Source: Phaeobacter sp. CECT 5382
GTDB taxonomy: Bacteria; Pseudomonadota; Alphaproteobacteria; Rhodobacterales; Rhodobacteraceae
Reading direction: 5' to 3'
Assembly (NCBI RefSeq): GCF_001457775.1
Contig: NZ_CYSG01000002.1
Location: 124,001 to 188,000, forward strand
DNA: 64,000 nucleotides
A model generated the notes under the pieces. It ran no database searches and was not told the origin of the DNA. It saw only the letters and a program-made list of their open reading frames with translations. A program made the translations under genes and the position numbers. Within the stretch, counting starts at the first letter, position 1. The number at the start of each line of letters is the position of its first letter. This document shows positions 46,332-47,426 of this stretch, piece after piece.

Positions 46332-47426
46332 ATGGGCTGGCTGGCCATTGTTGATCCCGGACAAGATGGGGGCAGAAAACCGGATCTGCGCGAGCTCGAG
46401 GCGGCTCAAATGCAGGCCGGTGGCGGCGATGCGCTGTTGCTGTGCGGGACTTTGGTGGTCGAGATGTCGATCCCCGATAGTGCCCGCCCGGAACCTTTGC
46501 TGTTGTTTGCCCAGGATGGTGACTGGCCGCTGCAACTGGGGCTTCAATCGGTGCCCGGCGGCGGCATAAATCTGGTGCTGGCACAGTCCGAAGCACTGTC
46601 CCATGCCACGCTGAACGCAACAGGGCAGGGTCGCACCGGGCAGCTGCGGCTGACCTATGTCTGGGACTGTCGGGCAGGCCGTTCGCTAGTCACACTGGAA
46701 CAAGCGGACACGGACCGGGTCCAGATCACCGAATTTCAAACCGCGCGCCCCTGGAGATATCAGGATCTGCGCATGCTGCTGGCGCCGGGCCCTCTGCGGG
46801 TTCTGTCGCCGTCGGTGTCTTATCTTGCTCTGTCCGATCAGGCTGAACCTGTTGGTCTGGTGCCGGGTTTTGATCCTGACACACCCGTTGCAACGCCACA
46901 GGGCTATCGTCACATCAAAGACTTGCAGCGGGGCGATCTGGTGATCAGCGAGGAGGGCAATCTGCTGCCGGTCCTGCATGTGCTGCATCGAGAGGTCCCG
47001 GCCCGGGGGCTGTTTCGCCCGGTGCGGCTACGCGCGCCTTTCTTTGATTTGCAGCAGGATATCCAAGTGGCTGCTTCGCAGCGTCTGGTTCTGCGCGGCA
47101 GCGAGGTGGAATACATGTTTGGCAAACCCGCAGTTCTGGTCCCGGCCCGCCACCTGCTGGGGACTTCGGTGGCGCTGCCGGGCAAGGAGGTGGACCGCCG
47201 TGCCAGCTACACGCAGGTCGTCTTGCCGGAACATGCGCCGCTTATGGTGGCCGGTGCGGCCCTGGAAAGCCTCTATCTGGGCAGCCTGCGCCGTGACCCT
47301 ATACGGCTGCGTGCCAGCCAGTTGGCGACAGCCGAGCGCGGCCTGCTGCCAGAGCATGGCGCACCGCGTTATCCGGCCCTGGGTGCTTTTGACGCCGCAG
47401 TTCTTGCGGAACGCCGGGTCGCCTGA
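46332..47426 (+). CDS. Hint-like protein lacking catalytic residues
   Basis: 364 residues from ATG 46332, 4 bases after the Hint A stop, so co-transcribed. Residues 1-170 look like a beta-sandwich (lectin/LamG-like) region. The remainder aligns with the Hint domain of its neighbour, but the position of the nucleophilic Cys is Gly179 (VPGFDPDTPVATPQGY) and the position of the His is Gln250 (AASQRLVL). Later blocks (EYMFGKPAVLVPARHLLGTS) match. Hence the fold is kept but self-cleavage is probably lost. Confidence 0.75.
   Translation: MGWLAIVDPGQDGGRKPDLRELEAAQMQAGGGDALLLCGTLVVEMSIPDSARPEPLLLFAQDGDWPLQLGLQSVPGGGINLVLAQSEALSHATLNATGQGRTGQLRLTYVWDCRAGRSLVTLEQADTDRVQITEFQTARPWRYQDLRMLLAPGPLRVLSPSVSYLALSDQAEPVGLVPGFDPDTPVATPQGYRHIKDLQRGDLVISEEGNLLPVLHVLHREVPARGLFRPVRLRAPFFDLQQDIQVAASQRLVLRGSEVEYMFGKPAVLVPARHLLGTSVALPGKEVDRRASYTQVVLPEHAPLMVAGAALESLYLGSLRRDPIRLRASQLATAERGLLPEHGAPRYPALGAFDAAVLAERRVA

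Follow-up and report, generated by a model that had tools for sequence, protein, structure and literature searches.

Results

Gene Organization

The DNA analysed here, referred to as the window, is a 64,000-nucleotide stretch of the genome of Phaeobacter sp. CECT 5382. The gene at its centre of interest, P0001 (46332..47426, + strand), is an open frame for a protein of 364 amino acids, the start of which is backed by an invariant Trp (W3) in a 79-row alignment, A2; this alignment holds 79 of 81 full-length relatives, L063 (C-terminally extended) and L094 (early stop) being left out. The protein begins with an N-terminal domain (residues 1-170; 46332..46841, +) predicted to fold as a LamG/CBM40-like (ConA-type) beta-sandwich. 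It continues with a Hint_2 domain (residues 178-317; 46863..47282, +), assigned by Pfam profile and fold match, in which the catalytic residues are replaced, and closes with a C-terminal tail (residues 318-364; 47283..47423, +), modelled with a terminal helix, that resembles and can be aligned to the tails of live Hint proteins. We call Hint domains live or dead according to whether they keep these residues.

Directly upstream, and ending 4 nt before the ATG of P0001, lies P0002 (44759..46327, +), which combines choice-of-anchor L, bacterial Ig and live Hint_2 domains. The name "choice-of-anchor" is an NCBI one, and such domains accompany varied surface anchors. Further downstream, P0003 (49233..50849, +) is a paralogue of P0002 with the same make-up and a live-type Hint, and no dead Hint gene stands behind it. 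Both flanking paralogues retain Cys and His (C334 and H405 in P0002, C348 and H419 in P0003), as the preliminary description of this DNA had stated. The divergent flanking gene upstream of P0002 is P0005 (43232..44422, - strand), an M20 peptidase (DapE-like). Downstream of P0001, P0004 (47480..48559, +) gives a profile match to a solute-binding/ligand-gated-channel-like protein; its solute-binding part is split by a ligand-gated/ion-channel domain, and we presume it to be akin to bacterial glutamate-receptor-type channels. At L021, L057, L060 and L075, too, a relative of P0004 stands behind the dead gene.

Catalytic Residues and Predicted Structure of P0001

The Pfam profile Hint_2 (PF13403) matches residues 178-317 of P0001 with 99.1 bits (cut-off 28.4, E 4e-28), and all 79 members of alignment A2 match it at E 0.01 or better. 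BLASTP aligns P0001 with P0002 from residue 177 onward (30% identity, E 6e-15). In a three-way alignment, P178-G179-F180 of P0001 falls on P-C-F of P0002 and P0003 and Q250-R251 on H-R, both gap-free nearby, and a profile-profile alignment of the P0001 and P0002 families (E 4.7e-39) returned the same residue equivalences. The earlier claim that Gly179 (codon GGT, 46866..46868, +) takes the place of the nucleophilic Cys and Gln250 (codon CAG, 47079..47081, +) that of the block-B His is borne out by both alignments. The block-B His sits in a motif of the form T/SxxH. In P0001 this site reads A247-A-S-Q250, the live Ser being replaced by Ala247 and the His by Gln250. The second conserved His (H448 of P0002) is Gln295 (47214..47216, +), and the third (H454 of P0002) is retained as His301. 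The preliminary description had left room for another Cys at the catalytic site, and we searched for one: the Cys residues of P0001 are solely at positions 38 and 113, so its Hint domain is Cys-free and a shifted catalytic Cys was ruled out. P0001 possesses neither the Cys (or Ser) at position 1 nor the block-B His called for in self-processing and is in this sense dead by residue. Because the nucleophile, the SxxH pair and the second conserved His are all missing, the protein should stay whole.

An AlphaFold2 model of P0001, computed with 79 family members, had a mean pLDDT of 95.0 and a pTM of 0.92 and predicts a rigid two-domain protein. Foldseek matched the Hint part to the gp41-1 intein (6qaz, TM 0.68 by target length, rmsd 3.7) and to a BIL domain (2lwy, TM 0.65). 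The model of P0002 is poorer (pLDDT 74.5), and its Hint part matched the same inteins (6qaz, TM 0.65). The structural comparison called for earlier was made for P0001 and P0002, both Hint parts matching the same inteins; the residue equivalences are taken from the sequence and profile alignments. For the front part of P0001, Foldseek returned laminin LG, neurexin LG, the thrombospondin N-domain and CBM40, with modest TM scores of up to 0.51 by target length (CBM40), and there was a weak profile match to CBM40 6er2-4 (E 0.0014, profile positions 25-100). By these predictions the N-terminal domain is a LamG/CBM40-like sandwich of the ConA type, with putative carbohydrate binding. Judged by the hydrophobicity of the first 60 residues, no clear export signal was found in P0001 or P0002: the top hydrophobic 15-mer scored 0.87 in P0002 and 1.82 in P0001, where it starts at residue 34, inside a predicted strand.

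Conservation of the Residue Loss

A search with P0001 over 198 genomes of the same family gave a match at E 1e-10 in 140, and among the matches listed many weaker ones span the Hint domain only. The 81 full-length relatives were drawn from this search, a search of the genus and a collection scan. Their Cys column holds C in 3 and another residue in 78, and their His column Q in 62 and H in 11; in live-type choice-of-anchor rows C is present in 60 of 61 (one Tyr) and H in 61 of 61, a contrast beyond what chance would give. The partner ORF of L028 is a live-type neighbour with Tyr for Cys and possibly a second dead partner. We then consider an enlarged set, of which 201 of 214 rows were kept after identical rows and Hint matches with a score below 40 or fewer than 110 positions had been dropped. 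Among its 100 distinct relatives of P0001, 86 lack both residues, 10 lack Cys only, 2 lack His only and 2 have both, and 85 of the 86 choice-of-anchor rows have Cys and His together.

A check set from an order-level draw gave a similar picture, with 42 of 45 scored relatives (L183, cut short, left out) lacking Cys, 42 lacking His and 3 having both, while the choice-of-anchor neighbours were intact at Cys and His in 31 of 31. One check-set member, L163, has the same sequence as alignment row L046, and L184 and L210 are more than 90% alike to alignment rows; with L163 removed, 41 of 44 are dead. The 32 other Hints of this set were all intact, these being best-scoring matches that hence lean to live. 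Pooling gave 148 distinct members, namely hits of the N-domain profile plus L097, L108 and L110, which were added by hand from the Hint-only tree. Both residues are absent in 131, Cys only in 10, His only in 2 and neither in 5, so that Cys is missing from 141 and His from 133, and 17 retain one or both; as relatives were picked by likeness to P0001, the dead share may be overstated. Death does not define the clade, since both residues survive in five members and His alone in another ten. Trp for Cys combined with Gln for His was seen in L095, L096, L097, L101, L103 and L116, and also in L118, L119, L121, L122 and L217. Tyr at position 261 is found in 142 of the 148 members, with Leu at that place in 21 of 23 outgroup rows. 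G256 is found in 145 and is less telling, because 5 of the 23 outgroup rows have it too.

These columns bear on whether some chemistry survives, with P0001 self-processing through another nucleophile (Ser or Thr in some members) or acting on other proteins. T or S occupies position 179 in 64 of the 148 members, which makes a weak nucleophile possible in some of them, and His301 is retained in 107. Inteins tolerate many active-site substitutions and some splice without the block-B His, according to one article (PMC7664689). Against this, 77 members have G, W, A, L or N at position 179, and P0001 itself has lost the Cys, both the Ser and the His of SxxH and the second His from a domain devoid of Cys. 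We therefore consider residual or altered chemistry improbable.

In a tree of the Hint domain only, which is free of front-domain bias but has few columns, the P0001 relatives are set apart by a branch with an SH-aLRT of 100 (104 tips, 100 of them profile-defined). A full-length tree of 171 rows gave a clade of 148 tips (SH-aLRT 97), a grouping that could be favoured by the outgroup rows, which have no front domain. Within it, all 81 tips of the subclade holding P0001 (SH-aLRT 100) are double-dead. Among 289 genomes drawn class-wide, three matched the profile at E 1e-40, all from the window's own family. On these trees and searches P0001 belongs to one clade, seen solely in its own bacterial family among the genomes searched. 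Unrooted parsimony counted 4 Cys and 7 His changes on the 171-row tree and 8 of each on the Hint-only tree. The residues may have been lost once early and later regained, or lost several times; both histories are possible because inner support is often low and five members with Cys and His are nested in the clade. These five (L078, L081, L207, L208 and L210) stand beside dead members and offer a place to study loss or regain.

Selection on the Dead Domain

We estimated dN/dS by NG86 in eight genomes of the genus, using those of the 28 pairs with dS below 1.5 and leaving out L094. The mean was 0.106 for the dead Hint domain (22 pairs), 0.106 for the tail of the same protein (18 pairs), 0.181 for its N-terminal domain (25 pairs) and 0.076 for the live Hint of the neighbour (22 pairs). 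The dead Hint is under purifying selection. P0001 thereby combines the two marks of a conserved pseudoenzyme, clade-wide loss of the active site and purifying selection. This selection, together with the near-invariant residues of the clade, indicates that the dead fold has a use.

A decaying gene or an alignment artefact would be another account of the missing residues, and a few relatives do look broken (G207 with an early TGA, G009 with a split frame and G018 with a match containing TAG). A stop was also flagged in the order-level matches G266, G285 and G299, but the frames of all three (L181, L187 and L192) are intact. The open frame, the dN/dS of 0.106, the 131 double-dead members and the check set are all contrary to this account, which we hold to be highly improbable; decay in particular was rejected on the grounds of purifying selection and clade-wide conservation, and the original statement that this is not simple decay stands.

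The same values speak to the possibility that the Hint domain merely caps the lectin-like domain as a passive aid to folding, with no partner. The rigid two-domain prediction (pTM 0.92) would suit such a cap, as would the persistence of the gene where the live neighbour is missing. However, constraint is stronger on the dead Hint than on the domain that it is supposed to cap (0.106 versus 0.181), and the strong adjacency to a live Hint gene also argues against a passive cap, which appears unlikely to us.

Association with the Live Neighbour

A choice-of-anchor Hint gene lies directly upstream in 59 of the 81 relatives, a count that omits the repeats L003, L010 and L043, and in 31 of 46 members of the check set, in which some stretches are cut short. 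Across 99 distinct pairs the median gap was 4 nt (range -4 to 123), 80 pairs lay within 15 nt, and 22 showed a 4-nt stop/start overlap. Such short gaps fit translational coupling of P0002 and P0001. Viewed from the live gene, a strong P0002 match was found in 76 genomes, 65 of which we classed as P0002-type by score and tree position, a matter of our own judgement; the remaining 11 had a match like P0003 or another paralogue only. A clade member follows directly downstream in 59 of the 65 (54 without Cys, 4 with Cys and 1 cut by a contig end), and none stands behind the P0002-type gene in the other 6. In one of these six, L098, the live-type gene is directly followed by a gene with 54% identity to P0004. 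Within the genus, P0001 is present in 9 of 12 genomes. The eight besides the source have a P0002-type gene of 79-82% identity; of the three without P0001, two have paralogue-type matches (53-54%) and one has none, so that in all 12 genomes P0001 and the P0002-type gene either occur together or are both missing.

The search of related genomes proposed in the preliminary description thus found the dead form conserved, its losses clade-wide and its gene usually directly behind a live one. The consistency of the pair, also raised there, holds in 59 of the 65 genomes and fails in 6.

No Hint gene stands just upstream in 22 of the 81 relatives, from 21 genomes. At E 1e-100, a P0002 match was absent from 18 of these genomes and of the paralogue type in 3, by our own classing. 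A relative of the DapE-like P0005 was nevertheless present at all 22 loci, in 20 of them divergent and 68-304 nt upstream, which indicates that the locus is the same and that the dead gene is retained there despite the absence of the live one. Each of these 21 genomes has 5 to 25 Hint_2 matches, the dead one included, which makes another partner possible there.

The usual adjacency is what one would expect if P0001 were an escort, inhibitor or docking subunit dedicated to P0002 and in need of it; the 59 downstream clade members, the very short gaps and the 12 of 12 co-presence in the genus all favour this view. Obligate partners would always occur together, yet the dead member is alone in 21 genomes and the live-type gene in 6. 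From this it follows that neither gene strictly needs the other, and a strict two-subunit dependence was ruled out. No P0002-type gene was found in the genomes of the 22 loci lacking an upstream Hint gene, the locus is otherwise the same as judged by the P0005 relative, and a substitute could come from among the other Hint_2 proteins. A subunit dedicated to P0002 is thus a possibility that we rate as rather unlikely. Of the partner-subunit role suggested earlier, the usual position next to a live gene holds, but the necessity of the partner does not; the chaperone and decoy functions proposed with it are putative.

Discussion

We propose that P0001 is a pseudo-Hint, a lectin-like protein bearing a Hint domain that is not cleaved and acts in structure or docking; it is often accompanied by a live Hint protein without depending on it, and we assign this reading a probability of about 0.5. 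P0001 would join a lectin-like beta-sandwich to a Hint_2 domain that keeps its fold and tail and is presumably unable to start the N-S acyl shift. With cleavage presumably lost, fold, surface and tail are what selection can still act on, which suggests that the dead Hint and its tail act as a permanently attached module for structure or docking. Where the live choice-of-anchor L neighbour is present, the two proteins would be made together and would probably share a place of work. P0002, being live, would begin the N-S acyl shift at C334. The dead and live Hint modules may perhaps touch each other, and where the live neighbour is missing the dead protein would work on its own. It is tempting to speculate further that there is mutual recognition between live and dead Hints, which would bring the lectin-like protein to the site where the live one is cut and attached or keep it there, and that the dead protein can switch partners among the cell's many Hint proteins; this extension is tentative and, in our estimate, not likely.

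By profile and fold P0001 has the same domain as other Hint_2 (PF13403) proteins, in the same C-terminal position and with a similar tail, but its nucleophile and block-B His are replaced and its N-terminal domain is LamG/CBM40-like, where those proteins have choice-of-anchor L or other domains. It also shares the HINT fold of Hedgehog Hog and BIL domains. Hog domains start by an N-S acyl shift, as stated in PMC7664689, and the same step is expected of the live neighbour, whereas P0001 is without the residue that starts the reaction. A non-functional HINT domain has been described in the Arthrobacter FB24 Arth_1007 intein, which the title of the source terms a pseudogene (PMC3196547); in contrast, the dead form seen in P0001 is maintained across a clade by purifying selection. 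Pairs in which a dead paralogue is encoded with a live enzyme are familiar among pseudoenzymes. The dead Hint gene differs from them in that it occurs alone too, and any dependence on a partner is putative.

The source genome contains 12 Hint_2 matches, and 5 of these 12 genes depart from Cys/His. Two short Hint_2 proteins, L011 and L012 (G000:C1, about 171591-171986 and 243200-243568), likewise carry Gly and Gln in the two catalytic positions and group together in the tree as a supported pair of their own; a search with L012 gave matches in 7 of 120 genomes, the source included. L008 (G000:C1) has Ser and His at these places and L009 (G000:C18) neither Cys nor His.

The HINT fold and the Hint_2 family are known, but the literature we searched, which left most subscription papers outside, did not show a bacterial Hint clade that is conserved in the dead state, nor such a form next to a live one, and we found nothing in it on what Rhodobacteraceae Hint_2 proteins do. 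In the main text of two exoproteome papers neither "Hint" nor "intein" occurs (PMC3933643, PMC5489592). A 2025 study lists Hint_2 as over-represented in strongly responding Rhodobacteraceae (PMC12487129).

Since the cutting residues are lost and the domain is kept intact by selection, the fold of the dead Hint seems to be reused for something besides cutting. A Hint_2 annotation alone is consequently no proof of self-processing. Hint_2 proteins are abundant in this family, and a conserved dead relative provides a natural control among them. It suggests a use of the fold apart from cutting, one that becomes testable where the dead and the live gene share one operon.
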